Positions 1,387 to 53,278 of a stretch of 64,000 nt of DNA are shown here, one piece after another. How positions within the stretch are numbered: the stretch's first letter is position 1; each line of letters begins with the position of its first letter. Source of the DNA: Halichondria panicea (taxonomy: Eukaryota; Porifera; Demospongiae; Suberitida; Halichondriidae). The translations under genes were made by a program, and so were the position numbers. Under the pieces are notes generated by a model. It was given only the letters and a program-made list of their open reading frames with translations, ran no database searches and was not told the DNA's origin. The stretch spans positions 868,001 to 932,000 of the forward strand of contig NC_087382.1 in assembly GCF_963675165.1 (NCBI RefSeq), read 5' to 3'.

Positions 1387-1470
1387 AGTGGAACCCCTCT
1401 ATATATAACGGACACCTTTGGGGAACAATGTTTTGGCCTTTATATATACATATCGATAGAGCTTAGTTCA
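1387..1470 (+). mobile_element. MITE end fragment (CAGTGGAACCCCTCTATA family)
   Basis: It begins CAGTGGAACCCCTCTATA and runs on with ACGGACACCTTTGGGG, the terminal motif of the complete element at 46078-46536. Only this end is present; it then breaks into the 3' part of a TRAF-like copy. A similar fragment lies at 37208. The junction shows that the TRAF-like copy lost its 5' part here. Confidence 0.65.
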
Positions 1471-1928
1471 ATACACATTCCCCAAACGATGAGACACCCA
1501 TTAGTGGTATTAGAACAATGCTAACCTCCCTAACTACAATGATACAACCTGATGGAAAGACTCACTGTGTACATATGAGCAACAAACTGGGAGTATTTAG
1601 GGAGCCATAATTAGAGGAATATTTCAAGCCAAATCACCAGCACTATGCATATACCCGGGATTCAAAATCTACCTTGTATTTGGTAAGAATCGGTTATTGT
1701 TGGTGTTGGAGGAAAGTGATATCCATGGTTACCCCGAGACTCTGTCTATTGAAGTGCAGTCTACAACAGGACAATCATTCTCACGTTCTCTAAGTGACCT
1801 CACATGTACAGCAACCAAGCAATGTGACTCCGGAAGAGAATTTAGATTCATGGTGGGTACTACGTTACCTTTTCGAGTTTCAAACAATCTCTATGCGAAC
1901 ATTAAGATCATGCACTGACATTTCTTAG
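1470..1928 (+). pseudogene. TRAF-like copy, 3' fragment (C-terminal domain only)
   Basis: It starts inside the linker after the coiled coil and carries the whole C-terminal domain to its final TDIS-type end; RING and zinc fingers are missing. Compared with the intact copy at 15529-16818 it lacks about ten bases near 1622 (the YYDILQ segment), which shifts the frame, and it has a changed last line (KIMH then stop). The downstream sequence, with a GGCGCC-rich palindrome near 2090, matches that behind copies 9025, 15529 and 37538, so it belongs to the same subfamily. Confidence 0.85.
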
Positions 1929-2285
1929 AGCAGAGACAACCTAGCAACTGTAGATGTAGAGGAAAGCCATCTATAATGTGTGTATATACCCCAAACACAA
2001 AGTGTTTTAGTGTTCTTAATTGTTCTATACGAGTCTAAATCAAAATAGACTTGGTTTTATTCAAAGGGGATATGTATATTATACGCAGGCGCCTTGCGGA
2101 AGCTCTGATTTGTTTATGCATGTTGCTAAGTAATAATAGCTAAATGAAAGAGGTACAAAAATGAATCGGACAGTTGACATTGAAAGTGGTGTGTGTAGTG
2201 TTATAGTAATCCGATCCACGTTTTTCATCTTCTTTATTTACTCTATCATCTGTATAATTATATAGAGATACATTCAAGTTACTAG

Positions 2286-2672
2286 ATGGTAAGGAAGAAA
2301 GGAAAACACTCAGCAATAACTAGCCCTCTACACTTATGCATATGTACCCACCTGCCTGTAGAGTGTTCTAATGATTGCCAAAAAGAGGGGATAATGCGTA
2401 AGGATATTCAAAATCATCTAGACAAATAATGCACAAAGAGACAAGTATATTGTGAGTATTGCAGTGAACGTGGTACTTATGAGTATATAACCGACACGCA
2501 TTTAGAAGAGTGCCTACATGTCCCGATAAAATGCCCCAGGGGATGTTTAGAAGACGACATCACAAGAAGTACGCTAGACGATCACAAACTAGTATGTAAA
2601 ATGGAGCCTATACAATGCACTTTTTATGAGTTAGGCTATAAGGAAAATATACTACGGAAAGATCTGCATTAA
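2286..2672 (+). pseudogene. RING-less zinc-finger/coiled-coil family copy 1, truncated
   Basis: Homologous to 10880-11482: the finger lines CSNDC-x-KEG, CEYC and CPRGC can be read, but there is a stop in the first finger (DK followed by TAA, near 2427) and the copy ends at the codons before the coiled coil. It lies ~360 bp behind a TRAF-like fragment, the same order seen in three other cassettes. Confidence 0.75.
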
Positions 2673-2989
2673 CTGATACACCGTTTTCAATGGACACAAG
2701 ATTTACAATAAATACTGGACAACCATGCAATCACATACAATTATCCGTAAGGCACCTCCATCAAGCACACATAGAACAATGCATATTCCCTTATTCCCTA
2801 TTATAGTAACCATGCACTGACTCTCCATGCCTACAACAACTTACCTTTATGACCTGAGGCTCCCCACAACAGCTAACAAGAGAGAGAACAACACATACAC
2901 TAAAGAAACATTGCACAGCTTAAATTCAATACACATTTCCGGGGCCCATGCATACCATAAATATACAGTGATGTACCCGTGCACACTGG

Positions 2990-3245: not shown

Positions 3246-4535
3246 ATGGCTACTCCTAATCCAGAGCCAGTTTTTGTCAAAGAGCTAGCTGATAAGTACA
3301 AGTGTAGTATTTGTACTAACCTTCTGGATACGCCAGTTTTAACTGAATGCTGTGGACAGCATTTTTGCAAAGCTTGTATAGGAAAGTGGATTATCCGAAA
3401 AAAAAAATCTATTTGCCCTCAGTGTCGAGCAGAAAACTTCAATAAGATAGTTTCTCAGCCGATAATCAGAGAGATCAAAGAGCTGGGAGTGTATTGTACG
3501 AATGATAACAATGGGTGTAAAGCGGTTATCAAATATGGAGATTTTCAGAAGCATGTGGACGAGTGCCCGTTTGGAGTTGTTGAATGCACCAACGATTGTG
3601 GTATGGGCAGATTGCTAAGAAAAGACCTCGAACAACATCGCAAACAAGTGTGTCCTAATCGAATAGTTCACTGTGAGCTTTGTAATGAAGAGGGTAAGCA
3701 TTCGGTAATAGTTGGAGAACACATACAAACTTGCCCTAGCGTTATTTTAGAATGCCCTAACAAATGCAACGAGAAAGTAAAGAGAAAAGATATCGAAGAG
3801 CACAGAAACGAGTGTACACTTGAGGAAGTGGACTGTCCTTTCAAAGATATTGGTTGTGAAGTGAGGCTGCCTCGTAAACGTGTTGAAAAGCATGAAATGA
3901 CAAGCATACAAAGCCATCTTAGACTCAACATGAAAGCTACAGCTACTGTCAAGAGAGAGAATAAGGAACTAAAAAGAAGCAACGATAAACTAAAAAAAAG
4001 CAACAATGAACTAAAAGAAGACTTTGACACGATTTTATCAGTTGTATCAACAGGGCTTAGTTCAATGGACATTCCCCCAAACAATAGGAAACCCATGAAT
4101 GGTATTAAAACAATACTAACCTCCCTAACCACAATGATTCAACCTGATGGCAAGACCCGCTGTGTACACATGAGCAACAAACTAGGAATATTCAGAGATC
4201 CACAATTAAAAGAGTTGTCTAGCCTTATTCAAGTAAGTTCACCACCACTATGCATATACCCGGGATTCAACATCTACGTTGCATTTGGTAATAATAGTTT
4301 AAATAAACTATTTTTGCTTTTGTTGGAGAAAAGTGCTATCCACGGTTACCCTGAGACACTGTCTATTGAAGTGCAGTCTACAACAGGACCACCATTCTCA
4401 CGTTCCCTAAATGACGTTTCATCAACAACCCACCAAAGTGACTCGGGAAGAGAATTTAGGTACATAGTGTGTAATACATCGCCTATTCTAGTTACAAACA
4501 ATTTCTTGAACATTAGGATCACTGACATTTCTTAG
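3246..4535 (+). CDS. TRAF-like RING / zinc-finger protein, 429 aa, intact
   Basis: Single open exon; the start is the ATG opening MATPNPEPVF, shared by all paralogs. RING: Cys 20, 23, 36, 41, 44, 57, 60; the usual His ligand is Gln38, with His39 next to it. Five TRAF-type fingers follow: C84-C91-H103-C107 (the CX6CX11HX3C spacing), C114-C118-H131-C136, C143-C146-H159-C163, C170-C174-H186-C190 and C197-C204-H216. A Lys/Glu-rich coiled coil spans ~228-265. Residues 266-429 form a C-terminal domain with YPGF, HGYPETLSIEVQ and SGREFR lines which I cannot assign. By family analogy it would be a cytoplasmic ubiquitin-ligase-type adaptor downstream of receptors; this is inference. Short antisense frames here are shadows of the fingers. 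Confidence 0.9.
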   Translation: MATPNPEPVFVKELADKYKCSICTNLLDTPVLTECCGQHFCKACIGKWIIRKKKSICPQCRAENFNKIVSQPIIREIKELGVYCTNDNNGCKAVIKYGDFQKHVDECPFGVVECTNDCGMGRLLRKDLEQHRKQVCPNRIVHCELCNEEGKHSVIVGEHIQTCPSVILECPNKCNEKVKRKDIEEHRNECTLEEVDCPFKDIGCEVRLPRKRVEKHEMTSIQSHLRLNMKATATVKRENKELKRSNDKLKKSNNELKEDFDTILSVVSTGLSSMDIPPNNRKPMNGIKTILTSLTTMIQPDGKTRCVHMSNKLGIFRDPQLKELSSLIQVSSPPLCIYPGFNIYVAFGNNSLNKLFLLLLEKSAIHGYPETLSIEVQSTTGPPFSRSLNDVSSTTHQSDSGREFRYIVCNTSPILVTNNFLNIRITDIS

Positions 4536-5347: not shown

Positions 5348-5363
5348 TGCTGCTATTGCATAC

Positions 5364-6034: not shown

Positions 6035-8048
6035 ATGGCTACTCCTAATCAAGAGCCAGTGTTTGTCAAAGAGCTAGCTGATAAGTACAAGTGTAGTATT
6101 TGTACTAACCTTCTAGACACACCAGTTCTAACTGAATGCTGTGGACAGCACTTTTGCAAAGCTTGTATAGAAAAGTGGATCATACGAAAAAAGGAATCAA
6201 TTTGCCCTCACTGTCGAGCAGAAAACTTCAATAAGATAGTTTCCCAGCCGATAATCAGAGAGATCAAAGAGCTAGAGGTGTACTGTACAAATCGTAAAAA
6301 CGGGTGCAATTAAAGCGGTTATCAAATATGGAGATTTTCAGAAGCACGTGGACGAGTGCCCGTTTGGAGTTGTTGAATGCACCAACGATTGTAATATGAT
6401 TGGATTGCTTAGAAAAGACCTCGAACAACATTGCAAACAAGAGTGTCCTAATCGAATTGTGCTCTGTAAGCTTTGTAACGAAGAGGGTAAGCATTCGGTA
6501 ATAGTTGGAGAGCACATACAAACTTGCCCTAACTTTACTTTAGAATGCCCTAACAAATGCAAAGAGAAAGTAAAGAGAAAAGATATCGAAGAGCACAGAA
6601 AAGAGTGTTCACTTGAGGAAGTGGATTGTCCTTTCAGGGAGGCTGGTTGTGAAGTGAGGCTGCCTCGTAAACATCTTGAAAAGCATGAAGCGTCTAGCAT
6701 TCAAAGCCATCTTCGACTCAACATGACAACTACTGCTACTGTCAATAGACCCATTGCAGTGACGTAATCAATAATTATGTCATTGGAATGTCAGCCATTT
6801 TGAGGTACCAGCAGCAGACTTTTACGTACAATGAACACAATTTGGCTAGTATTTAGCACCAAAAAGATACCCTTTGTAGAAGGTTATTTATCTTCAAAAC
6901 AAGACCAAGGTGGCAAGAAGAAGTACCTGAACAAGCTAGATATCATTATTGGGCTAGATCCTTCAAAATGCGGCTGAAAACAAGGAGTGAAAAGATGGCT
7001 CTGTACTAGTGGAAATGCATTGCAATGACATAGAGTTATTTTCAAGTTTATGTGTGTTAGCTATATTTAGCTATATGATTTGTGACATGTGTGTGCAAGT
7101 ATGAACTGAATTGAACATTCTATGAAAAAGTTACAGGAACAGCAAAACTGCAGAAAATACACAAGCCATTCTCCATGTCTCAGGCTGCTCAGCTCTAATT
7201 CTTTGTCTCTTTGACTTGGGATGACACTTGGGAGTCAGTAGAAGTTCTTGTCTTTATCCCTACTACTATAGGATTTCCACAATATAATAAGTACAAAAAT
7301 CACTATTTTTACCTGTAAATTCACAAATCTGTTTGATGTGGTACCCCAAAAATGGCGGCTATCATTGAAGTATCAAAGCGTGACGTCATAACCACACCCA
7401 CTGCAATGGGTCTATACAGCTATGACTAATGTCAATACAGCTCTAGCTAATTTCAATACAGCCATGGCTATACCGTTACGAGAGAGAATAAGGAACTAAA
7501 AAGAAGTCACGATGAACTAAAAAGAGATTTTGATACGATTTTATCAGTTGTAACGACAGAGCTTAGTTTATTGGACATTCCCCCAAACGATAAGAAACCC
7601 ATGGATGGTATTAGAACTGTACTAACCTCCCTAACCACAATGATACAACCTGATTGTAGGGCCTATACTGTGTACACATGAGCAACATATTGGGATTATT
7701 CAGAGATCCAGAATTAAAGAGTTTTTCTAACATCCTTCGAGCCAGTTCACCACCACTATGCATTCTCCCGGGATTCAAAATCTACCTTGCATTGGTAATG
7801 ATTGTGTTAGCAAACGATTTTTTCTTCTGTTGGAGAAAAGTGCTATGCATGGTTACCCCGAGACTTTGTCTATTGAAGTGCAGCCTACAACAGGACAACC
7901 ATTCTTGTGTTCCTTAAAAGACCTCCAACATTCTTGTGACATACAACGTGACTCAGGAAGAGAAGTTAGGGTTAGGATGGGGGATATATTACCCAATCTA
8001 GTTTCAGACGATTTCTATGCAAACATTAGGATCACTGATATTTCTTAG
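6035..8048 (+). pseudogene. TRAF-like copy, broken by stop, MITE and frameshifts
   Basis: RING and first-finger Cys pair are intact up to codon 92; then three extra bases (TGCAATTAAAG instead of TGTAAAG, near 6306) put in a TAA. Fingers 1-5 are still readable from 6348 to 6700. At 6747 a 667-bp element splits the coiled coil. After it, two extra bases in the ATGGCTACC line and one lost base near 7794 shift the frame again. The C-terminal domain then reads to TDIS at 8048. At least four lesions make this a dead copy; its pieces resemble 13560-14220 and 42221-42703 most. Confidence 0.9.
6747..7413. mobile_element. 667-bp element inserted in TRAF-like pseudogene
   Basis: Ends AGACCCATTGCAGTG and CACTGCAATGGGTCT are perfect 15-base inverted repeats, with ACGTAAT / TGACGTCAT just inside. 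The empty site is readable in paralogs (GTCAATACAGC at 22833), which gives a 2-bp AT duplication. No transposase ORF. It disrupts the coiled-coil codons of copy 6035. Confidence 0.9.
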
Positions 8049-9024: not shown

Positions 9025-10229
9025 ATGGAAGCTAACACAAGAAGCATCAGTATAGCTATGGCTACTCCTAATCCAGAGCCAGTGTTTGTCAAAGAGTTAG
9101 CTGATAAGTACAAGTGTAGTATTTGTTTGAACCTTCTAGACACGCCAGTTCTAACTGAATGCTGTGGACAGCATTATTGCAAAGCTTGTATAGAAAAGTG
9201 GATCATACGAAAAAACGAATCGATTTTCCCTCACTGTCGAGCAAAAAACTTCAATAAGATAGTTTCCCAGCCGATAATCAGAGAGATCAAAGAGCTGGGA
9301 GTGTATTGTACGAATCGTAAAAAAGGGTGTAAAGCTGTTATCAAACATGAAGATTTTCAGAAGCACGTGGACGAGTGCTCGTTTGGAGTTGTCGAATGCA
9401 CCAATGATTGTGGTACGCGCGGATTGCTAAAAAATGACCTCAAACAACATTGCAAACAAGAGTGTCCTAATCGAATAGTGCACTGTAAGCTTTGTAACGA
9501 AGAGGGTAAGCATTCGGTAATAGTTGGAAGGCACAAGCGTACTTGCCCTAACGTCATCCTAACAAATGCGACAAGAACATAAAGAGAAAAGATATCAGAA
9601 AGCACAGAAACGAGTGTCTACTTGAGATTGTAGATTGTCCTTTCAAAGAGGCTGGTTGTGAAGTGAGGCTGCCTCGAATAGATACCGAAGATCATGAAGC
9701 ATCTAGCATGCAAAGCCATCTTAGACTTGCTATGACAACTAACAAAAGGGAGAAAAACGAGCTAACAAGAAAACACGATGAACTAAAACGAGATTTTGAC
9801 AATCTTCTATCAGTTGTATCGACAGAGCTTAGTTCAATACACATTTCCCCAAACGATGAGACACCCATTAGTGGTATTAGAACAATACTAACCTCGCTAA
9901 CTACAATGATTCGAGCTGATGGCACTGTGTACATAATTTATGAGCAACAAACTGGGAATATTCAGGGAGCCAGAATTAGAGGAATATTATGACATTCTTC
10001 AAGCCAGTTCACCAGCACTATGTATATACCCGGGATTCAAAATCTACCTTGTATGTGGTAAGAATCGGTTATTGTTGGTGTTGGAGGAAAGTGATATCCA
10101 TGGTTACCCCGAGACTCTGTCTACTGAAGTGCAGTCTACAACAGGACAATCATCTCACGTTCTCTAAGTGACCTCACATGTACAGCAACCAAGCAATGTG
10201 ACTCTGGAAGAGAATTTAGATTCATGGTG

Positions 10230-10264
<35 letters not shown>

Positions 10265-10328
10265 TACGTTACCTTTTCGAGTTTCAAACGATTTCTATGC
10301 GAACATTAAGATCACTGACATTTCTTAG
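9025..10328 (+). pseudogene. TRAF-like copy, near-twin of 15529, broken
   Basis: Nearly identical to the intact gene at 15529. Lesions: a RING Cys codon is changed (IFPHC for ICPHC); eleven bases are lost near 9560 (LECPNKC line), shifting the frame inside finger 4; several bases are gained near 9925; one base is lost near 10153; and an (AT)n run sits in the GTACTACG line. Reading pieces: 9025-9582, 9663-9992, 9940-10167. The preferred start by family comparison is 9058; 9025 is an in-frame upstream ATG. The high identity to 15529 with this many lesions suggests recent decay. Confidence 0.9.
10231..10263. repeat. (AT)n microsatellite inside a TRAF-like pseudogene
   Basis: About 16 TA/AT units placed where the sister copy 15529 reads GGTGGGTACTACG. 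It interrupts the last ~30 codons of the C-terminal domain. Confidence 0.95.
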
Positions 10329-10879
10329 AGCAGAGACAACCTAGCAACTGTAGATGTAGAGGAAAGCCGTCTAATGTGTGTATACCCCAAACACAAAGTG
10401 TTTTAGTGTTCTTAATTGTACTACAAGTAAAATAAAATAGACTTGGTTTTATTCAAAGTTAACTAAGGGCATGCATACGTATGTATATTATACGCAGGCG
10501 CCTTGCGGAAGCTCTGTGCATGTTGCTAAGTAATAATAGTAAATGAAAGAGGTACAAAAATGGATCGACATTGAAAGGGGTGTGTGTAGTGTTCCGATCC
10601 ACGTTTGTCATCTTCTTTATTAATAATCTGTATAATTATATAGAGGAACATAGAAGTTACTAGATGGTAAGGAAGAGAGGAAAACACTCAGCAATAACTA
10701 GCCCTCTACACTTACACACATGTACCCACCTGCCTGTGAAGTGTGAGATCTGATTTATAATATTATATATAACTGCTGGACAACCAAAACTAAGCGAAAT
10801 CATACAAATTTGATACCAATAACTTAGAGAAGATTTAGACGAGCATCTTAGAGAGCATTGTCAAAGCCAAAAATTTATT
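10329..10879 (+). other. Intra-cassette spacer
   Basis: Joins the TRAF-like copy to the RING-less finger copy. Contains ATACGCAGGCGCCTTGCG (GC-rich palindromic core, ~10492), also present near 2084, 16955 and 38672 at the same place in the other cassettes. Near 10840 a line reading DLDEHLREHC looks like the second half of one more TRAF finger, so the downstream gene may once have begun here. Confidence 0.6.
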
Positions 10880-11482
10880 GTGAAAAAAGGAAAACAACAC
10901 TCAGCGATAACCAGCCCTCTACACTTATGCATATGTACCCACCTGCCTGTAGAGTGTTCTAATAATTGCCAACAAGAGGGGATAATGCGTAAGGACCTTC
11001 AAAATCATCTAGACAAAGAATGCACAAAGAAACAAGTATATTGCAAGTATTGTGACGAACGTGGTACTTTTGAGTATATAACTGACACGCATTTAGAGGA
11101 GTGCCTACATGTCCCGATAAATTGCCCCATGCAGGGGATGTTTAGAAGACAATATCACAAGAAGTACGCTATAGACAGTCACAAACTAGTATGTAAAATG
11201 GAGCCTATACAATGCACTTTTTACGAGTTAGGCTGTAAGGAAAATATACTACGGAAAGATTTGGAGACACATAATGAGCAGAGCATACAGCAACACTTGG
11301 TCTTAATGATGAAGACGGGGGCTACTGTACACAGCAGTTTAAGAATGGAGAATGAAGCTATGAAAACTGAAATTGAAACCTTGAGGACAGAAATGGATGC
11401 ATCGAGAGGAGAGTTGGAAGAGCTGAGACTAGAACACACACAATTGAAGGAACATAATGAGGAGCTAGATCAGGTGGACTAG
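10880..11482 (+). CDS. RING-less zinc-finger/coiled-coil protein, 200 aa
   Basis: Longest member of the sister family. Fingers: CSNNC-x-H-x-C, then YCKYC-x-H-x-C. A third finger is damaged: four extra bases near 11130 and two near 11172 cancel out, so residues ~101-120 are read out of frame and one Cys pair (CPRGC in relatives) is lost. The last finger and a strongly heptad-like coiled coil (from ~MKTGATV to LDQVD) are intact. There is no RING and no C-terminal domain. If expressed it could pair through its coiled coil and act as a RING-less partner; this is inference. It may equally be a pseudogene with compensating frameshifts. The start is uncertain; upstream codons are open only for a short way. 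Confidence 0.6.
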   Translation: MKKGKQHSAITSPLHLCICTHLPVECSNNCQQEGIMRKDLQNHLDKECTKKQVYCKYCDERGTFEYITDTHLEECLHVPINCPMQGMFRRQYHKKYAIDSHKLVCKMEPIQCTFYELGCKENILRKDLETHNEQSIQQHLVLMMKTGATVHSSLRMENEAMKTEIETLRTEMDASRGELEELRLEHTQLKEHNEELDQVD

Positions 11483-12281: not shown

Positions 12282-14219
12282 ATGTCTACTCCTAATCCAG
12301 AGCCAGTGTTTGTCAAAGAGCTAGCTGATAAGTACAAGTGTAGTATTTGTACTAACCTTCTAGACACGCCAGTTCTAACTGAATGCTGTGGACAGCACTT
12401 TTGCAAAGCTTGTATAGGAAAGTGGATTATACGAAAAAGAAATCTATTTTCCCTCAGTGTCGAGCAGAAAACTTCAATAATATAGTCTCTTAGCCGATAA
12501 TCAGAGAGATCAAAGAGCTGGGAGTGTATTGTATGAATCGTTACAACGGGTGTAAAACAGTTATCAAATATGGAGATTTTCAGAAGCACGTGGACGAGTG
12601 CCCGTTTGGAGTTGTTGAATGCACCAACGATTGTGGTATGGGCGGATTGCTAAGAAAAGACCTCGAACAACATCGCAAACAAGTGTGTCCTAATCAAATA
12701 GTTCACTGTGAGCTTTAATTGTAATGAAGAGGGTAAGCATTTGGTAATAGTTTTTTTTTTTTTTTTTTTTTTTTACAATTCAGCGAAAGCCAGGATACAA
12801 TAAAATAGCAGAAGCTAATAAGTTAGTACCCTAAAAAATATATATAATATTATATAATTATATATAGTGTAACTATACCTATTCAAAGAATGCTAAGTAC
12901 TATACAGGGTCATTAAGCATAGACTTAAGGGAGTACAAGTGCTGATTATAAGTTCACAATTTGCCATAATCCTGTTCCACAGTTCAATGGTCCTTGGGAA
13001 AAAGGAGTTACTATGGACTGATGTTATGCATGATACTGGAGTCAGAGACAAATTGTTAACATGTCTTGTATTGTATGTTAATTGTCTCTTCTTAGGTGTG
13101 TCCTCATAGTAACTTATATTATACATAATTTTGAATAAATGGTGCAGACTGGCCAATGCCCTTCTCTGACCCAGCGTTGGTAGTTCTGCTCGTTTCAAAA
13201 GTTCCAAATAGCTGATAGAGTAATCCCACTGTTTTAGGCAAACCTTTAATGCAAACTTCTGGACTTTTTCCATATCCTTGATAATGCATTTTAAGTGTGG
13301 GTTCCAAACGATTGAAGCATACTCTAGTTTTGGTCTAATAGTTGGACAACACATACAAACTTGCCCTAGCGTTATTCTAGAATGCCCTAACAAATGCAAC
13401 GAGAAAGTAAAGAGAAAAGATATCGAAGAGCACAGAAACGAGTGTCCATTCGAGGAAGTGGATTGTCCTTTCAAAGAGGCTGGTTGTGAGGTGAGGCTGC
13501 CTCGTAAACATCTTGAAAAGCATGAAGCGTCTAGCATGCAAAACCATCTTTGACTCAACATGACAACTACTGATACTGTCAATACAGCTATGACTAATGT
13601 CAATACAGCTCTAGCTAATTTCAATACAGCCATGGCTACCGTTACGAGAGAGAATAAGGAACTAAAAAGAAGTCACGATGAACTAAAAAGAGATTTTGAT
13701 ACGATTTTATCAGTTGTATCGACAGAGCTTAGTTTATTGGACATTCCCCCAAGCGATAAGAAACCACTGGATGGTATTAGAACTGTACTAACCTCCCTAA
13801 CCTCAATGATACAACCTGATGGCAAGACTCACTGTGTACACATGAGCAACATATTGGGATTATTCAGAGATCCAGAATTAAAGAGTTTTTCTAACATCCT
13901 TCGAGCCAGTTCACCACCACTATGCATTCTCCCGGGATTCAAAATCTACCTTACATTTGGTAATGATTGTGTTAGCAAACGATTTTTTCTTCTGTTGGAG
14001 AAAAGTGCTATCCATGGTTACCCCGAGACTGTGTCTATTGAAGTGCAGCCTACAACAGGACAACCATTCTCGTGTTCCTTAAAAGACCTCCAACATTCTT
14101 GTGACATACATCGTGACTCAGGAAGAAAAGTTAGGGTTATGATGGGGGATATAATTTATTACCCAATCTAGTTTCAGACGATTTCTATGCAAACATTAGG
14201 ATCACTGATATTTCTTGTA
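12282..14219 (+). pseudogene. TRAF-like copy split by a retrotransposon
   Basis: Start MSTPNPEPVF; RING intact to WIIRKR, then a base loss in an A-run (near 12438) shifts the frame, and a TAG follows near 12489. Fingers 1-3 resume at 12524-12718. A LINE fragment interrupts finger 3 at 12751-13335. Fingers 4-5 read from 13341; a CGA to TGA stop (13552) falls in the HLRL line. The rest (13560-14171) is open but the end is shifted by three-to-four extra bases near 14152. Copy 22134 has the same TGA, so that lesion is older than their separation. Confidence 0.9.
12751..13335 (-). mobile_element. 5'-truncated non-LTR retrotransposon (RT C-terminus)
   Basis: On the - strand it codes the end of a CR1/Jockey/L2-type reverse transcriptase ORF: RPKLEYASIVWNP opens the recognisable C-terminal region, and a stop lies at 12893. 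The 3' end is a 24-base T run on the + strand (12751-12774), i.e. a poly-A tail. The host sequence GGTAATAGTTGG is split, with TAATAG on both sides as target duplication. Being 5' truncated and tailed, it is a typical dead-on-arrival insertion. The 246-codon - strand frame over this area is part LINE and part antisense TRAF and is not a gene. Confidence 0.9.
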
Positions 14220-15528: not shown

Positions 15529-16818
15529 ATGGAAGCTAACACAAGAAGCATCAGTATAGCTATGGCTACTCCTAATCCAGAGCCAGTGTTTGTCAAAGAG
15601 TTAGCTGATAAGTACAAGTGTAGTATTTGTTTGAACCTTCTAGACACGCCAGTTCTAACTGAATGCTGTGGACAGCATTATTGCAAAGCTTGTATAGAAA
15701 AGTGGATCATACGAAAAAACGAATCGATTTGCCCTCACTGTCGAGCAAAAAACTTCAATAAGATAGTTTCCCAGCCGATAATCAGAGAGATCAAAGAGCT
15801 GAGAGTGTATTGTATGAATCGTAAAAACGGGTGTAAAGCTGTTATCAAACATGAAGATTTTCAGAAGCACGTGGACGAGTGCTCGTTTGGAGTTGTCAAA
15901 TGCACCAATGATTGTGGTACGCGCGGATTGCTAAAAAATGACCTCAAACAACATTGCAAACAAGAGTGTCCTAATCGAATAGTGCACTGTAAGCTTTGTA
16001 ACAAAGAGGGTAAGCATTCGGTAATAGTTGGAAGGCACAAGCGTACTTGCCCTAACGTCATCTTAGAATGCCCTAACAAATGCGACAAGAACATAAAGAG
16101 AAAAGATATCAGAAAGCACAGAAACGAGTGTCTACTTGAGATTGTAGATTGTCCTTTCAAAGAGGCTGGTTGTGAAGTGAGGCTGCCTCGAATAGATACC
16201 GAAGATCATGAAGCATCTAGCATGCAAAGCCATCTTAGACTTGCTATGACAACTAACAAGAGGGAGAAAAACGAGCTAACAAGAAAACACGATGAACTAA
16301 AACGAGATTTTGACAATCTTCTATCAGTTGTATCGACAGAGCTTAGTTCAATACATATTTCCCCAAACGATGAGACACCCATTAGTGGTATTAGAACAAT
16401 ACTAACCTCCCTAACCACAATGATTCAACCTGATGGCATTAAGGCTCACTGTGTACACATGAGCAACAAACTGGGAATATTTAGGGAGCCAGAATTAGAG
16501 GAATATTATGATATTCTTCAAGCCAGTTCACCAGCACTATGCATATACCCGGGATTCAGAACCTACCTTGTATTTGGTAAGAATCGGTTATTGTTGGTGT
16601 TGGAGGAAAGTGATATCCATGGTTACCCCGAGACTCTGTCTATTGAAGTGCAGTCTACAACAGGACAATCATTCTCACGTTCTCTAAGTGACCTCACATG
16701 TACAGCAACCAAGCAATGTAACTCCGGAAGAGAATTTAGATTCATGGTGGGTACTACGTTACCTTTTCGAGTTTCAAACGATTTCTATGCGAACATTAAG
16801 ATCACTGACATTTCTTAG
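15529..16818 (+). CDS. TRAF-like RING / zinc-finger protein, 429 aa, intact
   Basis: Open throughout. The frame has an upstream ATG at 15529, but comparison with paralogs favours the ATG at 15562 (MATPNPEPVF), giving 418 aa. RING with Cys pairs CSIC, CKAC, CPHC and CCGQHYC in the middle; five TRAF-type fingers; a coiled coil shorter than in gene 3246; then the family C-terminal domain (CIYPGF, HGYPETLSIEVQ, SGREFRFMVG, ending ITDIS). It belongs to the subfamily marked by QASSPALC and LLLVLEESDIHGYPE. Copy 9025 is its decayed twin, and fragments 1470 and 38150-38514 share its C-terminal half. Role by family only: signalling adaptor or ubiquitin ligase. Confidence 0.9.
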   Translation: MEANTRSISIAMATPNPEPVFVKELADKYKCSICLNLLDTPVLTECCGQHYCKACIEKWIIRKNESICPHCRAKNFNKIVSQPIIREIKELRVYCMNRKNGCKAVIKHEDFQKHVDECSFGVVKCTNDCGTRGLLKNDLKQHCKQECPNRIVHCKLCNKEGKHSVIVGRHKRTCPNVILECPNKCDKNIKRKDIRKHRNECLLEIVDCPFKEAGCEVRLPRIDTEDHEASSMQSHLRLAMTTNKREKNELTRKHDELKRDFDNLLSVVSTELSSIHISPNDETPISGIRTILTSLTTMIQPDGIKAHCVHMSNKLGIFREPELEEYYDILQASSPALCIYPGFRTYLVFGKNRLLLVLEESDIHGYPETLSIEVQSTTGQSFSRSLSDLTCTATKQCNSGREFRFMVGTTLPFRVSNDFYANIKITDIS

Positions 16819-17059
16819 AGCAGAGACAACCTAGCAACTGTAGACGAAAGCCGTCTATAATGTGTGTATACCCCAAACACAAAGTGTTTTAGTGTTCTTA
16901 ATTGTACTACAAGTAGACTTGGTTTTATTCAAAGCTAACTAAGGGCATACGTATATTATACGCAGGCGCCTTGCGGAAGCTCTGTGCATGTTGCTAAGTA
17001 AATGAAAGAGGTACAAAAATGAAGAGTTGGCTGACATAGGATCGACATTGAAAGGGGTG

Positions 17060-17591
17060 ACTTATGCATATGTACCCACCTGCCTGTGGAGTGCTCTAAT
17101 GATTGCCAACAAGAGAGGATAATGCGTAAGGACCTTCAAAATCATCTAGACAAAGAATGCACAAAGAGACAAGTATATTGTGAGTATTGCGGTAAACGTG
17201 GTCATTTTGAGTACAATTAGAGGAGTGCCTACATGTCCCGATAAATTGCCCAAGGGGATGTTTAGAAGACAATATCACAAGAAGTACGCTAGACAGTCAC
17301 AAACTAGTATGTAAAATGGAGCCCATACAATGCACATTTTATGAGTTAGGCTGTAAGGCTACGGAAAGATTTGGAGACACATAATGAGCAGAGCATGCAG
17401 CAACACTTGGTCTTAATGATGAAGACGGGGGCTACAGTACAGAGCAGTTTAAGAATGGAGAATGAAGCTATGAAAACTGAAATTGAAACTTGAGGACAGA
17501 AATGGATGCATTGAGAGGAGAGTTGGAAGAGCTGAGACTAGAACACACACAATTGAAGGAACATAATGAGGAGCTAGATCAGGTGGACTAG
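17060..17591 (+). pseudogene. RING-less finger/coiled-coil family copy 3, broken
   Basis: Reads CSNDCQQERIMRKDLQNHL and further fingers, but a run of ~20 bases is missing near 17215 (the EYITDTHLEE line), the CKENI line is cut near 17356, and one base is lost near 17491 in the coiled coil (GAAACTTGAGG), giving a TGA. Lies ~240 bp behind gene 15529, the cassette order. Confidence 0.8.
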
Positions 17592-18707: not shown

Positions 18708-19958
18708 ATGGCTACTCCTAATCTAGAGCCAGTGTTTGTCAAAGAGCTAGCTGATAAGTACAAGTGTAGTATTTGTACTAACCTTCTAGACACACCAGTT
18801 CTAACTGAATGCTGTGGACAGCACTTTTGCAAAGTTTGTATAGAAAAGTGGATCATACGAAAAAAGGAATCGATTTGCCCTCACTGTCGAGCAGAAAACT
18901 TCAATAAGATTGTTTCCCAGCCGATAATCAGAGAGATCAAAGAGCTTGGGGTGTATTGTACGAATCATAAAAACGGGTGCAAAGTGGTTATCAATTATGG
19001 AGATTTTCAAAAGCACGTGGACGAGTGCCCGTTTGGAGGTGTCGAATGCACCAACGATTGTGGTACGAGCGGATTACTAAGAAAAGACCTCGAACACCAT
19101 CGCAAACAAGTGTGTCCTAATCGAATAGTGCACTGTGAGCTTTGTAACAAAGAGGGTAAGATTTTGATAATAGTTGGAAGGCACAAACGATTTTGCCCTA
19201 ACGTCGTCTCAGCATGCCCTAACAAATGCAACGAGAAATTAAAGAGAAAAGATATCAAAAAACACAGAAACGAGTGTACACTTGAGAAAGTGGATTGTCC
19301 TTTCAGGGAGGCTGGTTGTGAAGTGAGGCTGCTTCGTAAAGATATCTCAGAGCATGAAACGACTAGCATTCAAAGCCATCTCCGACTCACCATGAAAACT
19401 ATGACTACTGTTAAAAGAGAAAATAACAAACTAAAAGGAGACGTTAATACAATATTATCAGTTGTATCAACAGAGCTTAGTTCAATGGACATTCCCCCAA
19501 CCCATACGAAACCAATGAATGGTATTAGAACAATATTAACTTCCCTAACTACAATGATACAACCTGATGGCAAGACTCACTGTGCACACATAAGCAACAA
19601 ACTGGGACTATTCAGAGATCCAGAATTAAAAGTTTTTTCTAGCTTTACTCAAGCCAGTTCACCAGCACTATACATACACCCGGGATTCAACATCTACTTT
19701 GCATTTAGTAATGATAGTTATAGAAAACTATTTTTGCTTTTGTTGGAGAAAAGTGCTATCCATGGTTATCCCAAGACTCTGTCTATCGAAGTGCAGTCTA
19801 CAACAGGACAATTCTCATGTTCTCTAAGTGACTTCATATGTGCATCAACCCAGCAATTATACTCAGGAAGAGAATTTAGGTTCATGACGGGTAATACGTT
19901 ACCTATTCTAGTTACAAACGATTTCTATATGAACATTAGGATCACTGACATTTCTTAG
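18708..19958 (+). CDS. TRAF-like RING / zinc-finger protein, 416 aa, intact
   Basis: Start MATPNLEPVF. RING (CSIC, CCGQHFC, CKVC became FCKVC, CPHC), five TRAF-type fingers with the spacing of gene 3246, a shorter coiled coil (KRENNKLKGDVNT; one heptad block absent), then the unassigned C-terminal domain ending ITDIS. A few unusual replacements: KILIIVGRHKRFC in finger 3 and CAHISNKLG for CVHMSNKLG. The spacer upstream matches that of pseudogene 6035. A RING-less finger copy follows at 20880 after a MITE, another cassette. Confidence 0.9.
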   Translation: MATPNLEPVFVKELADKYKCSICTNLLDTPVLTECCGQHFCKVCIEKWIIRKKESICPHCRAENFNKIVSQPIIREIKELGVYCTNHKNGCKVVINYGDFQKHVDECPFGGVECTNDCGTSGLLRKDLEHHRKQVCPNRIVHCELCNKEGKILIIVGRHKRFCPNVVSACPNKCNEKLKRKDIKKHRNECTLEKVDCPFREAGCEVRLLRKDISEHETTSIQSHLRLTMKTMTTVKRENNKLKGDVNTILSVVSTELSSMDIPPTHTKPMNGIRTILTSLTTMIQPDGKTHCAHISNKLGLFRDPELKVFSSFTQASSPALYIHPGFNIYFAFSNDSYRKLFLLLLEKSAIHGYPKTLSIEVQSTTGQFSCSLSDFICASTQQLYSGREFRFMTGNTLPILVTNDFYMNIRITDIS

Positions 19959-26680: not shown

Positions 26681-26682
26681 TA

Positions 26683-37537: not shown

Positions 37538-38514
37538 ATGGCTAGTCCAGTTAATTACGAGTTTGTAGACAAAGTACTGGAAGATTATCTCTGCACTATT
37601 TGCACTAACATTCTAACAGATTCAGTATTGACGGATTGTTGTGGACAAGATTTTTGCGAGGGCTGTCTAAAAAAGTGGCTACAGAGCCGGAAGACATGCG
37701 CACATTGTCGAGAAGTTATCTTGGAATGCCTTAACAAATGCAACAAATGCAACAAGAACATAAAGAGAAAAGATATCAGAAAGCACAGAAACGAGTGTCT
37801 ACTTAAGATTGTAGATTGTCCTTTCAAAGAGGCTGGTTGTGAAGTGAGGCTGCCTCGAATAGATACCGAAGAGCATGAAGCATCTAGCATGCAAAGCCAT
37901 CTTAGACTTGCTATGACAACTAACAAGAGGGAGAAAAACAACAAAAAAACAAAAACAAAAAAACACGATGAACGTACTAAAACGAGACTTCTATCAGTTG
38001 TATCGACAGAGTTTTGTTCAATGGACATTTCCCCTAACGATGAGACACCCATTAGTGGTATTAGAACAATACTAACCTCCCTAACCACAATGATTCAACC
38101 TGATGGCATTAAGGCTCACTGTGTACACATGAGCAACAAACTGGGAGTATTTAGGGAGCCAGGATTAGAGGAATATTATAACAATATTCAATGCAGTTCA
38201 CCAGCACTATGCATAATTATATCCGGGATTCAAAATCTACCTTGCGTTTGGTAACGATAATGTTGGTAAACAGTTTTTCTTTGGTTGGAGAAAAGTGATA
38301 TCTATGGTTACCCCAAGACTCTGTCTATTGTTATTGAAGTGCAGTCTACAACAGGACAATCATTCTCATGCACGTTCTCTAAGTGACCTCACATGTACAG
38401 CAACCAAGCAATGTGACTCCGGAAGAGAATTTAGATTCATGGTGGGTACTACGTTACCTTTTCGAGTTTCAAACGATTTCTATGCGAACATTAAGATCAC
38501 TGACATTATTTTCT
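37538..38514 (+). pseudogene. Chimeric TRAF-like copy: foreign RING on a family body
   Basis: The first ~58 codons (MASPVNYEFVDKVLEDYLCTIC..) are a different RING; its core CCGQDFC has no His at all, and CAHC closes it. At REVILEC the sequence joins finger 4 of the standard family; fingers 1-3 are absent. CNK is doubled. Finger 5, an A-rich coiled coil with changed codons (KTKTKKHDERTKT) and the linker follow. Near 38212 extra bases (GCATAATTATATCC for GCATATATCC) shift the frame, and one base plus six bases are changed later (38275, 38330). The C-terminal half mixes subfamilies 29000 and 15529. Open part 238 codons. Probably dead, possibly a truncated RING/finger protein. Confidence 0.8.
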
Positions 38515-39129
38515 TAGAGCAGAGACAACCTAGCAACTGTAGATGTAGATGAAAGCCGTCTAATGTGTACCCAAACACAAAGTGTTTTAGTGTTCTTAGT
38601 TGTACTATACGAGTAAAATAAAATAGACTTGATTTTATTCAAAGCTAACTAAGGGGATATGTATATGTTATACGCAGGCGCCTTGCGGAAGCTCTGTGCA
38701 TGTTGCTAAGTAATAATAGTAAATGAAAGAGGTACAAAAATGAAGAGTTGGCTGACATATATAGGATCAACATTGAAAGTGGTGTGTGTAGTGTTAGTAT
38801 AATCCGATCCACTTTCTTTATTAATCATCTGTATAATTATATATAAATATAGAATATATATATAGAGGAACATAGAAGTTACTAGATGGTAAGGAAGAAA
38901 GGAAAACAGTCAGCAATAACTAGCCCTCTACACTTATACACATGTACCCACCTGCCTGTGAAGTGTGAGATCTGATTTATATATAATTATAACTGCTGGA
39001 CAACCAAAACTAAGCGAAATCATACAAATTTGATACCAATAACCTTGAGGACATTATGTTCAGAAAAGATTTAGACGAGCATCTTAGAGAGCATTGTCAA
39101 AGCCGAAAATTAGTATTGGGAAAAAAGGA
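38515..39129 (+). other. Intra-cassette spacer
   Basis: Same as 10329-10879 and 16819-17059: ATACGCAGGCGCCTTGCGGA near 38672, GGTGTGTGTAGTGTTA near 38781, then GATTTAGACGAGCATCTTAG (finger remnant) near 39068. Confidence 0.6.
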
Positions 39130-39721
39130 AAACAACACTCAGTGATAACCAGCCCTCTACACTTATGCATATGTACCCATCTGCCTGTAGAGTGTTCTAA
39201 TGATTGCCAACAAGAGGGGACCGGACAATGCGTAAGGACCTTAAGAATCATCTAGACAAAGAATGCATAAAGAGACAAGTATATTGCGAGTATTGCGGTG
39301 AACGTGGGACTTTTGAGTATATAACTGATACGCATTTAGAGGAGTGCCTACATGTCCCGATAAATTGCCCCGGGGGATGTTTAGAAGATGATATCACAAG
39401 AAGTACGCTAGACGGTCACAAACTAGTATGTAAAATGGAGCCTATATACAATGCACTTTTTACGAGTTAGGCTGTAAGGAAAATATACTACGGAAAGATG
39501 TGGAGACACATAATGAGCAGAGCATACAGCAACACTTGGTCTTAATGGTGAAGAACGGGGGTTACTGTACAGAGCAGTTTAATAATGGAGAATGAAGCTA
39601 TGAAAACTGAAATTGAAACCTTGAGGACAGAAATGGATGCATTGAGAGGAGAGTTGGAAGAGCTGAGACTAGAACACACACAATTGAATGAAAATGATGA
39701 GGAGCTAGATCAGCTGGACTA
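39130..39721 (+). pseudogene. RING-less finger/coiled-coil family copy 5, frameshifted
   Basis: Fingers CSNDC (with GGGGACCGGAC inserted near 39217), CEYC and CPGGC read from 39204; the two-base TA gain near 39446 (as in 20880) shifts the frame; the coiled coil is hit again near 39553 (AAGAACGGGGGTTACTG). Trailer as in the other copies, shortened. Confidence 0.8.
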
Positions 39722-41354: not shown

Positions 41355-42703
41355 GTGGCTACTTCTAATCCAGAGCCATGCAGAGTTTATCAAAGAGCTC
41401 TTTGATAAACTCTGGCTCTGGATAAGTACAAGTGTAGTATTTGTACTAACCTTCTAGACACGGCTGTTTTAACTGAATGCTGTGGACAGCATTTTTGCAA
41501 AGCTTGTATAGAAAAGTGGATTATACGAAAAAAGAAATCTATTTGCCCTCAGTGTCGAGCAGAAAACTTCAATAAGATTGTTTCCCAGCCGATAATCAGA
41601 GAGATCAAAGAGCTGGGGGTGTATTGTACAAATGATAAGAATGGGTGTAAAGCGGTTATCAATTATGGAGATTTTCAGAAGCATGTGGACGAGTGCCCGT
41701 TTAGAGTTGTTAAATGCACCAACGATTGTGATATGATTGGATTGCTAAGAAAAGACCTTGAGCAACATTGCAAACAAGAGTGTCCTAATCGAATAGTGCA
41801 CTGTCAGCTTTGTAATGAAGAGGGTAAACATTCGGTAATAGTTGGAAGGCACATACAAACTTGCCCTAACATGACCTTAGCATGCCCTAACAAATGTGAG
41901 GAGAAAGTAAAGAGAAAAGATATCGAAGAGCACAGAAAAGAGTGTCTACTTGAGGAAGTGAATTGTCCTTTCAAAGAGGCTGGTTGTGAAGTGAGGCTGC
42001 CTCGTAAAACATCTTGAAAAGCATGAAGCGTCTAGCATGCAAAACCATCTTCGACTCAACATGACAACTACTGCTACTGTCAATACAGCTATGAATAATG
42101 TCAATACAGCTCTAGCTAATTTACGTTACGAGAGAGAATAAGGAACTAAAAAGAAGTCACGATGAACTAAAAAGAGATTTTGATACGATTTTATCAGTTG
42201 TATCGACAGAGCTTAGTTTATTGGACATTCCCCCAAACGATAGGAAACCCATGAATGGTATTAGAACTGTACTAACCTCCCTAACCACAATGATACAACC
42301 TGATTGTAGGGCCTACTGTGTACACATGAGCAACATATTGGGATTATTCAGAGATCCAGAATTAAAGAGTTTTTCTAACATCCTTCGAGCCAGTTCACCA
42401 CCACTATGCATTCTCCCGGGATTCAAAATCTACCTTGCATTTGGTAATGATTGTGTTAGCAAACGATTTTTTCTTCTGTTGGAGAAAAGTGCTATCCATG
42501 GTTACCCTGAGACTGTGTCTATTGAAGTGCAGCCTACAACAGGACAACCATTCTCGTGTTCCTTAAAAGATCTCCAACATTCTTGTGACATACAACGTGA
42601 CTCAGGAAGAGAAGTTAGGGTTATGATGGGGGATATATTACCCAATCTAGTTTCAGACGATTTCTATGCAAACATTAGGGTCACTGATATTTTAGTCTTA
42701 TAG
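41355..42703 (+). pseudogene. TRAF-like copy, start lost, palindrome in codons 8-16
   Basis: The start codon is GTG (GATGTGGCTAC). The VFVKELADK line is replaced by an inverted duplication (41381-41414). RING and fingers 1-5 are open from ~41430 to 42007, where an extra A (CGTAAAACATC) shifts the frame. About 15 bases are lost near 42122 in the coiled coil. From 42221 the linker and C-terminal domain are open to TDILVL and a stop. Closest to copies 12282 and 6035. Confidence 0.9.
41381..41414. repeat. Perfect 34-bp palindrome in TRAF-like pseudogene
   Basis: CAGAGTTTATCAAAGAG followed directly by its reverse complement CTCTTTGATAAACTCTG. Farther out, CCAGAGCC and GGCTCTGG also pair. Paralogs have only one strand's version (TGTCAAAGAGCTAGCTGATAA). 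Confidence 0.95.
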
Positions 42704-45457: not shown

Positions 45458-45925
45458 ATGAGTATAGCTATGGCTATAGCTACTCCTAATTCAGAGCCAG
45501 CGTTTGTCAAAGAGTTAGCTGATAAGTACAAGTGTAGTATTTGTACTAACCTTCTAGACACACCAATTCTAACTGAATGCTGCGGACAGCACTATTGCAA
45601 AGCTTGTATAGAAAAGTGGATCATACGAAAAAAGGAATCGGTTTGCCCTCACTGTCGAGCAGAAAACTTCAACAAAATCATCGCCCTACCACTAGTTTTA
45701 AAAATCAAAGAGCTGGGAGTGTATTGCACAAATCGTAACAACGGGTGTAAAGCGGTCATTAACTATGAACATTTCCAGAAGCACGTGGACGAGTGTCTGT
45801 TTGGAGCTGTTGAATGCACCCACGATTGTGGTACGGGCGGATTGTTTTAAAAGACCTTGAATGCAAACAAGTTTGTCCTAATCAAATAATGCTCTGTGAG
45901 CTTTGCAACGAAGAGGGTAGATCCA
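45458..45925 (+). pseudogene. TRAF-like copy, truncated after finger 2
   Basis: RING and finger 1 are intact (130 codons, linker IIALPLVLKIKELG as in gene 29000). At 45841 a T-rich change (GGATTGTTTTAAAAGACC for GGATTGCTAAGAAAAGACC) gives a TAA. The LCNEEG line of finger 3 can just be read at ~45890-45920, after which the sequence leaves the family. A mobile-element cluster follows. Confidence 0.9.
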
Positions 45926-46077
45926 TAGACCACACAGTAGATTACTCTGTTAGAGTAATGGAGTGACACACAATGACATCACTAAATGTAAGGACCGAAT
46001 AAAAGCAGAATCATAGAACCTTTTGTCTTCACTACTATGAATTCCCTTACAGCATTACACCTTTTTAGGAGTGTCTA

Positions 46078-51200: not shown

Positions 51201-51800
51201 AACTCAGGAGCAATAAAACTAAACCAGACTGGAGGCATGCTGAAACATTTGAGAACAGGTAGTGGTACTATAGATATATGCACTGTGGATTAGGATCACA
51301 GTAAAGAAGCCTGGAGTCTCAGAGAAGTATGGCTCCAGGTTCTGCATGGAGTAGGATCCCAGTCAGCAGCAGGAGAAGCTTCTCTACTTTAGTGACCCTG
51401 TTCCATTGTTCCTGGTATATACAGCTTTCTACTTTAGTGACCCTGTTCCATCGTTCTTGGTACAGGATCACTTCAGTTATAAGTAACGCATGTGCAAGTT
51501 CTGTTCAAGCTACATTTTGCTCGCTTTTATTAGACAAAGAAGCTTTAACACCGAAAGCTGCCACTATCAAAAGTACTAACTTGTTGTGTGGAGGCTACTT
51601 ATGCTGTAAACGCAGTGCTAGAACATCCAGGTAAGCAGACCTAGTCACAAGCTTATTCAAGCTTCTTAGCTTTTGCTCGACAAAGAAGCTTTAACATCAA
51701 AATCTGCCACTATTTAAATCAAGATATTGTTCTGTGAAGGCTATCTATGCTGTAAACGCAGCGCTGTGGCATCCAGGTGAGTAGATATACCTGTGACAAA
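48205..51800 (+). repeat. Satellite-like array, five ~740-bp units
   Basis: Units start ACTAGAGCACTAAAGTGCAA at 48205, 48945, 49688, 50423 and 51086, and end in (CAAA)n. Each unit has two related halves, both closing on CATGCTGTAAACGCAG..CATCCAGGT(G/A)AG, which looks like an exon end with donor. The same unit occurs once inside the pogo-like element (44217-44940), its likely source. Frames of ~100 codons (MAPGSAWSR..) recur but are broken by indels in unit 3 and are absent in unit 4, so I do not call genes. Confidence 0.9.
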
Positions 51801-52110
51801 CAAACAAACAAACAAACAAACAAACAAACAGACCAACATACTACTATACCCGTGGCCGCCCACGCGCGCCTCGGGTAACAAACCAACAGACTACTATACC
51901 CGCTGGCCGCGGCACGGCCTCGGGTAACAAACAGACCAACATACTACTATACCCGTGGCCGCCCACGCGCGCCTCGGGTAACAAACAAACAAACAGACCA
52001 ACAGACTACTATTCCCGTGGCCGCCCACGCGCCTCGGGTAACAAACAAACAGACCAACATACTACTATACCCGTGGCCGCCCACGCGCGCCTCGGGTAAC
52101 AAAACAGTTT
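51801..52110. repeat. GC-rich tandem repeat, ~40-65 bp units
   Basis: Five units of ACTACTATACCCGTGGCCGC plus CCACGCGCGCCTCGGGTAAC, separated by (CAAA)n. A single unit stands at 44952-44990 in the pogo-like element. CCCG..CGGG arms in each unit are partly palindromic. Confidence 0.9.
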
Positions 52111-52351
52111 CAGTACATGTAGTAGCCTCCTCCACAGGCCACCTTGAAGGAAAGAAGGAGGGCCAGAAGTATGAGGGGCCTGGATTCGAGGCTATTTCAG
52201 TAGCTGCATCATAATCCAGAGCCAGTAAGAAATTATATGATTTCATGCCTTTTTAGGAGAACTATAAATAGTATTGCACATTTGTAGTCATTATGACCTT
52301 ATATACACACTGAAGTTGAAACTAACAAAAGAAGGAACACAGTATAGCTAT

Positions 52352-53278
52352 ATGGCTACTCCTAATCCAGAGCCAGTGTTTGTCAAAGAGCTAGCTGAAA
52401 AGTACAAGTGTAGTATTTGTTTGAACCTTCTAGACACACCAGTTCTAACTGAATGCTGTGGACAGCATTTTTGCAAAGCTTGTATAGAAGATTGGATCAT
52501 AACAAACAAGGAATCAACTTGCCCTCACTGTCGAGCAGAAAACTTCAAGAAGATTGTTTCCCAGCCGAAAATCAGAAAGATCAAAGAGCTGGAGGTGAAT
52601 TGTACGAATGATATCAATGGATGCAAAGCGATTATCAAATTTAGAGATTTTCAGAAGCACGTGGACGAGTGCCCGTTTGGAGGTGTCGAATGCACCAATG
52701 ATTGTGGTACGGGCGGATTGCTAAGAAAGAACCTCCAATTGCATTGCAAACAAGAGTGTCCTAATCGAATAGTGCACTGTAAGCTTTGTAACAAAGAGGG
52801 TAAGCATTCGGTAATAGTTGGAGAGCACAAACAAGAGTGTCCTAATCGAATAGTGCACTGTAAGCTTTGTAACGAAAAGGGTGAGCATTTGGTAATAGTT
52901 GGAGAGCACAAAGGAATTTGCCCTAAAGTCGTCGTAGCATGCCCTAACAAATGCAACGAGAAATTGAAGAGAAAAGATATTAAAGAGCACAAAAACGAGT
53001 GTCGACTTGAGATTGTGGATTGTCCCTTCAAAAAGGCTGGATGTAAAGCGAGTCTGCCTCGTAAAGATATCGCAGAGCACAGAAACGAGTGTCCATTTGA
53101 GATTGTGGATTGTCCCTTCAAAGAGGCTGGATGTGAAGCGAGGCTGCTTCGTAAGGATATCTCAGAGCATAAAGTGTTTAGCATGCTAAAACATCTCCGA
53201 CTAACACTTAATATGTGGTATATTTTAATTTCTGTATGTGTACTATTTATATGCGTGTGTTTGTACAACGAACGCTAA
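52352..53278 (+). CDS. RING / seven-finger protein with C-terminal membrane anchor, 308 aa
   Basis: Start MATPNPEPVF (52352) as in the family; the frame runs 26 codons further up without support. RING CSIC, CCGQHFC, CKAC, CPHC. The TRAF-type fingers have grown: the finger beginning CPNRIVHCKLC occurs twice in a row (~137-190) and the one with EIVDCPFK..AGC also twice (~218-280), giving seven. After HLRLTLN the family coiled coil and C-terminal domain are missing; instead residues ~288-305 (WYILISVCVLFICVCLY) are a hydrophobic helix, then NER and the stop. Directly behind lies the family trailer (GTGTCTTAGTGTTCTTGTG). So the product would be a tail-anchored RING/finger protein with the catalytic part in the cytosol. 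Membrane insertion is inferred from sequence only. Confidence 0.88.
   Translation: MATPNPEPVFVKELAEKYKCSICLNLLDTPVLTECCGQHFCKACIEDWIITNKESTCPHCRAENFKKIVSQPKIRKIKELEVNCTNDINGCKAIIKFRDFQKHVDECPFGGVECTNDCGTGGLLRKNLQLHCKQECPNRIVHCKLCNKEGKHSVIVGEHKQECPNRIVHCKLCNEKGEHLVIVGEHKGICPKVVVACPNKCNEKLKRKDIKEHKNECRLEIVDCPFKKAGCKASLPRKDIAEHRNECPFEIVDCPFKEAGCEARLLRKDISEHKVFSMLKHLRLTLNMWYILISVCVLFICVCLYNER

Follow-up and report, generated by a model that had tools for sequence, protein, structure and literature searches.

A tandem array of RING/TRAF-finger genes in the sponge Halichondria panicea with a fast-changing C-terminal domain, most likely a diverged MATH

TRIM proteins join a RING and a coiled coil to a fast-changing C-terminal recognition domain, an arrangement that probably recurs in the gene family described here. 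In nematodes, according to a passage of PMC5392922, most members of the F-box plus MATH set show strong positive selection at their substrate-binding sites and the genes respond to infection, and sponge TRAF genes respond to microbial signals, as an excerpt of PMC8242945 has it, with no tie to the cluster considered below. For an expansion of TRAF or MATH genes in sponges, no paper was found by title or by the start of its abstract in the open-licence literature. Here we analyse a stretch of 64,000 nucleotides from the genome of Halichondria panicea (contig C6, NC_087382.1, 868,001-932,000; hereafter the window, numbered from its first nucleotide), together with searches of the whole genome (131.5 Mb, 39 contigs). 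A DNA pattern for the active-site line of silicatein matches this genome twice and the control not at all; both matches translate into a cathepsin-L-like exon in which Ser replaces Cys, in keeping with a demosponge. We consider it probable that the window holds a tandem birth-and-death array of genes for predicted TRAF-like RING E3 ubiquitin ligases, which would pair a constant RING with a variable recognition domain, the latter being a diverged MATH.

Copies were detected within the window by tblastn, using pieces of the gene at 3246 and the protein of a sister family as queries, and the RING/zf-TRAF/coiled-coil/C-domain family was found at 15 places from 1482 to 53278, all on the forward strand. 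Open reading frames (ORFs) remain in six of them (3246, 15529, 18708, 24417, 29000 and 52274), and the other nine are dead through stops, frameshifts, truncation or insertion. An earlier sequence-only reading had given this tally (15 copies, six open and nine dead, plus five sister copies), which tblastn and the ORFs bear out, and the lines that it had quoted (YPGF, HGYPETLSIEVQ, SGREFR and ITDIS) are all found in the family; its six open copies do have open frames, but in the one at 52274-53278 homology ends after the zinc fingers, without a C-domain. The window thus has five full-length open copies, which with four outside it make nine full-length ORFs that include the C-domain. The best non-self matches of gene 3246, to the copy at 18708, reach E 4.5e-130 in the N-half and 1.0e-68 in the C-half (tblastn), and chance is therefore excluded as the source of the family relation. 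The array extends past the window: C-domain relatives lie at 852-910 kb and 1,257 kb of the same contig (21 matching stretches), with family members upstream at 852.5, 858.7 and 860.8 kb and another at 1,257 kb, and at least 20 scored zf-TRAF matches fall within C6:838,941 to 975,236.

Every full-length copy encodes, within a single open frame, a RING at the N-terminus, followed by zinc fingers of the TRAF type, a stretch predicted as coiled coil and finally the C-domain. In copy 2 (3246..4535, + strand, 429 amino acids [aa]) the RING finger occupies aa 17-63 (3294..3434, or aa 19-61 more narrowly; Pfam zf-RING_2 at 27.4 bits, also zf-C3HC4_3), the better of two zf-TRAF stretches aa 159-216 (3720..3893; PF02176, E 2.2e-20), the coiled coil and linker aa 233-310 (3942..4175; a homologous linker is present in a second family, here called the bridge family) and the C-terminal domain, most likely a diverged MATH/TRAF-C, aa 311-429 (4176..4532). 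Throughout the six open copies the RING matches PF13639/PF00097 near the cut-off, nine candidate zinc residues (C20, C23, C35, C36, H39, C41, C44, C57 and C60) are conserved in the alignment, and PF02176 zf-TRAF is found above cut-off in two or three stretches each (E 1.3e-22 to 2.1e-15); the nearest solved sequences to gene 3246 are the N-halves of TRAF5 and TRAF6. The RING at 3303-3425 and its homologues read CCGQHFC, where only one residue separates His from the Cys that follows, a spacing that departs from the classical RING; since the corresponding line in genes with a canonical MATH, such as L047, is CCGKKFC, without His, zinc may be held by ligands of the C4C4 kind. The coiled coil appears in AlphaFold model 1 as a single helix (residues 2-48 of the modelled stretch, low confidence), and four copies carry 21-bp, i.e., one-heptad, tandem repeats in this part (3967-4020, 7410-7470, 13577-13638 and 22829-22895), a likely route to changes in its length.

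The link between the C-domain and MATH was sought in loci from the entire genome, of which 40 were fetched and one, L033, was left out (no ORF of at least 200 aa); no comparison included L025 and L051 (truncated or broken), L061 or the second ORF of L053, and L036 and L058 (incomplete N-half) entered the MATH profile only, L034 the tree and mosaic test only and L022 the profiles only. The bridge family (L022-L041, same contig) has the part order of the window family, and in its C-domain a remnant of MATH can still be read (PGYKMYV ... LEKGEHDHQLKWPMPEMEIEL). PF21355 MATH matches 12 of its 13 members at E ≤ 0.1 (best 5.8e-4), below the cut-off, one member reaching 19.4 bits where 27.4 are required. 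In hhalign the bridge profile aligns with the canonical MATH of this genome at 95.8% (E 7.2e-9), and the window family aligns with the bridge at 58.8% when the linker is excluded (E 9.4e-5; at most 4.1% in 100 column shuffles) and at 91.9% when the shared linker is included (E 6.9e-7; at most 12.7% in 60 shuffles); the WP of the bridge LKWPM line pairs with the YP of the window HGYPETLSIEV line. Models point in the same direction. AlphaFold model 1 (seven sequences, coiled coil included) is a beta-sandwich with a predicted local distance difference test score (pLDDT) of 56.9, and model 2, of the C-domain of copy 7 at 18708 (13 window stretches), is a beta-sandwich of eleven strands (pLDDT 67.6, predicted template modelling score 0.65). 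In the VIA structure comparison of model 2, 33 of the first 34 rows are named TRAF1, TRAF2, TRAF4, TRAF6, Siah1 (which belongs to the TRAF-C fold), meprin, USP7 or SPOP, although these are many entries for about eight proteins, the 34th title naming no protein; the Z-scores of these rows run from 6.3 to 4.5 (the best over 106 residues at 3.5 Å), and the first unrelated row is row 35 (Z 4.1). A MATH/TRAF-C fold is thus likely on the models but not proven, and profiles and models together make it most likely that the C-domain is a diverged MATH/TRAF-C that has drifted beyond sequence recognition.

Several results weigh against this assignment. Compared directly with canonical MATH, the window family reaches only 1.9% in hhalign, which is not significant (score 18.77, against 18.37 in shuffles), and the relation therefore depends on the bridge as intermediate; moreover, the hhalign E-values apply to a single comparison. 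None of 13 window C-domain pieces was matched by the Pfam MATH models at E ≤ 10, the C-terminal 160 residues of open copies and fragments match no Pfam MATH family, an HMM (hidden Markov model) of the canonical MATH reached the window family at E 0.2 at best, and a joint window-plus-bridge profile (A6) gave no match. Searched against PDB sequences, the window profile retrieved only respiratory-virus M2-1 chains (E 0.08 to 0.17), which we attribute to chance; the bridge profile ranked bacterial adhesins (E 0.13) ahead of TRAF6 (E 0.37 to 0.76). As for structure, all VIA Z-scores are below 8, a range in which the tool warns of common arrangements, model 1 has TRAF1, TRAF3, meprin and USP7 in only seven of 50 rows and an unrelated first row, and Foldseek against the PDB gave no match at E ≤ 0.001 for either model, the first MATH row of model 2 standing at rank 3 (E 0.5, template modelling score 0.35). 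This failure of direct recognition, by sequence and by Foldseek alike, would agree with a replacement of MATH in this cluster by a new domain, likewise a beta-sandwich but of other origin, and the sequence-only reading had indeed suggested a new domain. We consider such a replacement improbable, since a stepwise profile bridge leads to MATH through a family with equal part order and a shared linker, and the VIA list is dominated by TRAF/MATH, a structural likeness that is clear in direction if modest in its Z-scores.

Descent was examined with an IQ-TREE phylogeny of the RING and fingers of 40 proteins (nine of the window family, 13 of the bridge family, four C-less, 13 MATH-bearing and L059), its supports being those of the unrooted tree. 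Window and bridge families are each fully supported and, with the four C-less proteins, split from the 13 MATH-bearing proteins plus L059 at 89.8/89; the order inside the former group is weakly supported (window family with sister, 45.5/50). The presence of MATH on both sides of this split is most simply explained by an ancestor that had MATH, and the tree, in combination with the profile chain that runs from canonical MATH through the bridge to the window family, supports descent of the C-domain from a MATH-bearing paralogue. Such paralogues abound: zf-TRAF has at least 150 genome matches (150 scored of 677 candidates) and MATH_2 likewise at least 150 (150 scored of 309 candidates), all scored ones above cut-off and both counts being lower bounds. 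The two often share an ORF (e.g., C3:7401682 and 7402333 within one 471-aa frame, or at C6:69 kb), and with many such pairs in one frame, RING/zf-TRAF/MATH genes constitute a large expansion in this genome, of which the window array is, by its sequence, one outlier cluster.

The two ends of these proteins evolve very differently. Among the nine full-length members, the ratio of nonsynonymous to synonymous differences per site (pN/pS) is 0.25 in the RING, 0.49 in the fingers, 0.68 in the coiled coil and 0.86 in the C-domain (bootstrap 0.70-1.05), and among the five full-length window copies 0.20, 0.52, 0.70 and 0.99, respectively; the C-domain exceeds the RING in 1000 of 1000 bootstraps of both sets, and mean identity in the window set is 0.92 in the RING vs 0.61 in the C-domain. 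These figures rule out the claim of the sequence-only reading that the C-half matches the RING in conservation. The contrast is weaker in the bridge family (RING 0.43 vs C-domain 0.64, n = 12) and hardly present in the canonical MATH set (0.40 vs 0.50, n = 6). Site models of the window C-domain yield a nonsynonymous to synonymous rate ratio (omega) of 1.00 under M0, and 31% of codons at omega 0.08 with the remainder at 1 under M1a; M2a adds 32% of codons at omega 2.3 and improves the fit by 13.7 (twice the log-likelihood difference, 2dlnL), a value reached in none of 169 null simulations under M1a (maximum 8.7) and adopted over the 21.9 that a looser optimiser with a differing M1a fit had given. 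Here too there are points on the other side: the site model is a custom implementation that keeps relative branch lengths fixed; recombination, present in this family, can mimic positive selection in it; and the zinc fingers give a comparable signal (2dlnL 14.5), so that the M2a signal is not peculiar to the C-domain. The signal of the bridge C-domain (2dlnL 90.9) was set aside, as its high-scoring sites fall mostly in a gap-rich, badly aligned stretch (404-421). Neutral evolution, raised in the sequence-only reading, thus describes the average C-domain but neither the RING nor the zinc fingers, and within the C-domain constrained and fast sites stand side by side. We infer that the RING and its flank form the constant effector part, and that the C-domain combines a constrained core with many positions that vary freely or under adaptation, the pattern that one would expect of a recognition surface.

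Could the C-domain simply be a MATH under relaxed constraint, doing little in a decaying cluster whose copies are maintained through duplication and gene conversion? Nine dead copies out of 15, an average C-domain pN/pS of 0.86 to 0.99 with bootstrap intervals that include 1, and an M0 omega of 1.00 agree with such a scenario, but several observations make it appear unlikely: the RING of these genes stays at pN/pS 0.20 to 0.25, M1a places about 30% of C-domain codons at omega 0.08, a class above 1 improves the fit, and the C-domain remains in nine full-length ORFs. The variable domain might also serve self-assembly or the pairing of paralogues instead of ligand recognition, copies changing together and thus keeping their networks apart; TRAF-C domains participate in trimers, the coiled coil adjoins the C-domain, and heptad-length repeats alter its length, but we give this explanation very little credence. 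Under the preferred reading, i.e., an array of ligases with a diverged MATH for recognition, these TRAF-like proteins would be trimeric or multimeric, each with its own MATH specificity; their MATH domains would bind different peptides or substrates, the proteins would ubiquitinate these or act as signalling scaffolds, and the repertoire would turn over through duplication, recombination between copies and pseudogenisation. A sensing role, with the variable MATH as the predicted substrate- or ligand-binding part, is possible. Taken further, the cluster could be a non-bilaterian, germline-variable system of intracellular recognition on a TRAF scaffold, with a constant RING, a MATH carried beyond sequence recognition by rapid adaptive change and halves exchanged by recombination, a proposal that we advance tentatively and with considerable doubt.

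Duplication and recombination have both left traces in the array. In self-alignment, 8441-10562 is 92.6% identical to 14959-17021, and 9561-11683 is 83% identical to 37742-39875; the latter block includes a family copy and the adjoining sister, and duplication therefore occurred in units. After Bonferroni correction, the two halves differ strongly in one of 36 window-family pairs (gene 3246 and its relative at 852.5 kb, between which pS is 0.150 for the N-half but 0.015 for the C-half) and in none of 66 bridge pairs. Copy 12 (37538..38507, +) is a broken mosaic: 37480-37749 is nearest to bridge genes (89-95%), 37720-37929 and 38020-38169 to copy 6, counted from 15562 (97-99%), 38140-38349 to copy 11 at 29000 (92-99%) and 38320-38529 to copies 1482/15562 (95-100%), i.e., a bridge-type RING, derived from another family, is followed by 15562-like, 29000-like and again 15562-like parts. 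Copies, unit duplication and recombination thus support the local birth-and-death array that the sequence-only reading had proposed. Its description of the sister as a RING-less family did not hold: the intact sister (C6:850,682-851,704, 341 aa), directly upstream of a family copy and without a C-domain, opens with a RING-like stretch, which rules out a strictly RING-less family. None of the five window sister copies, all on the + strand and all without RING, matches the first 93 residues of the sister protein, and they are truncated duplicates of this intact gene; four are broken (2295..2666, 17047..17588, 20795..21472 and 38895..39719), and in the one at 10709..11482 zinc fingers and coiled coil are open from 10880.

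The other copies, likewise on the + strand, are in varied states of preservation. Open are copy 6 (15529..16818; 429 aa from the first ATG, 418 aa from 15562), copy 7 (18708..19958; 416 aa), copy 9 (24417..25727; 436 aa) and copy 11 (29000..30184; 394 aa, linker partly missing), as well as the C-less copy 15 (52274..53278; 334 aa from a TTG start, with an ATG at 52352), in which in-frame duplications of 81 and 90 bp (52747-52912 and 52973-53173) have added fingers to the zinc-finger part that follows the RING. Broken are copy 1 (1482..1909; C-domain only, with a frameshift and a stop), copy 3 (6035..8045; frameshifts), copy 4 (9058..10325; a frameshift near 9558, a broken C-domain and RING Cys57 changed to Phe), copy 5 (12282..14171; frameshifts, stops and a gap separating the halves), copy 8 (22134..23421; stops and frameshifts) and two of which tblastn finds the N-half only, copy 10 (27951..28480; frameshifts) and copy 14 (45476..45951); copy 13 (41355..42703) has a broken N-half and an open C-domain. 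An ORF on the reverse strand (12893-13633) crosses copy 5 and is probably an insertion; part of it is presumably the end of a non-LTR reverse transcriptase, by resemblance (no search was made). Between copies 11 and 12 lie GC-skewed minisatellites of 46 bp (33796-34192) and 39 bp (34340-34891), and 48203-50856 consists of two overlapping blocks, offset by ca. 740 bp and 88% alike, inside which tblastn found no family copy. Beyond the array lie two 100% identical direct repeats of 946 bp (56441-57386 and 61600-62545), and between them an intact transposase ORF of 555 aa (57547-59214, - strand; PF13843, E 8.8e-69) and, at 59188-61264, a 153-bp satellite repeated 13.4 times. The 946-bp unit, whose start TTAACCC we take to be piggyBac-like, has at least 40 genome copies at ≥ 99% (of 346 candidates, 40 were scored), and some of them follow one another at intervals of ca. 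5.05 kb (C8:885707, 890758 and 895808).

With the C-domain most likely a MATH, one candidate for a new domain falls away, and the family illustrates the extent to which MATH can diverge among recent tandem duplicates next to a RING that stays constant; annotation pipelines will list such genes as RING/zf-TRAF proteins and miss the C-domain. The array also offers a compact example with which to examine whether early-branching animals diversify the recognition domains of ubiquitin ligases, as nematodes do with MATH adapters. Its closest counterparts are the animal TRAFs (TRAF2, TRAF4, TRAF5 and TRAF6), which have RING, TRAF zinc fingers, coiled coil and TRAF-C-like sandwich in this order; the N-half of the window family matches solved TRAF5 and TRAF6 and its C-domain model aligns to TRAF1, 2, 4 and 6, but the C-domain is missed by Pfam MATH models and changes much faster than the RING, and the genes are single-exon-like frames in large tandem arrays. 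The RING/zf-TRAF/MATH genes that this genome has at C3:7.27-7.42 Mb and at other loci share the part order in one ORF and the tandem arrays, whereas their own MATH lies above the Pfam cut-off and evolves at a pN/pS near that of their RING. In TRIM proteins B-boxes and PRYSPRY stand in place of the TRAF fingers and MATH of the window family. The nematode MATH/F-box expansions are likewise large, lineage-specific sets of ligase adapters with positively selected substrate-binding MATH sites (a passage of PMC5392922, citing Thomas 2006), but their products are cullin-ligase adapters without a RING of their own, whereas the window proteins carry the RING in the same chain.

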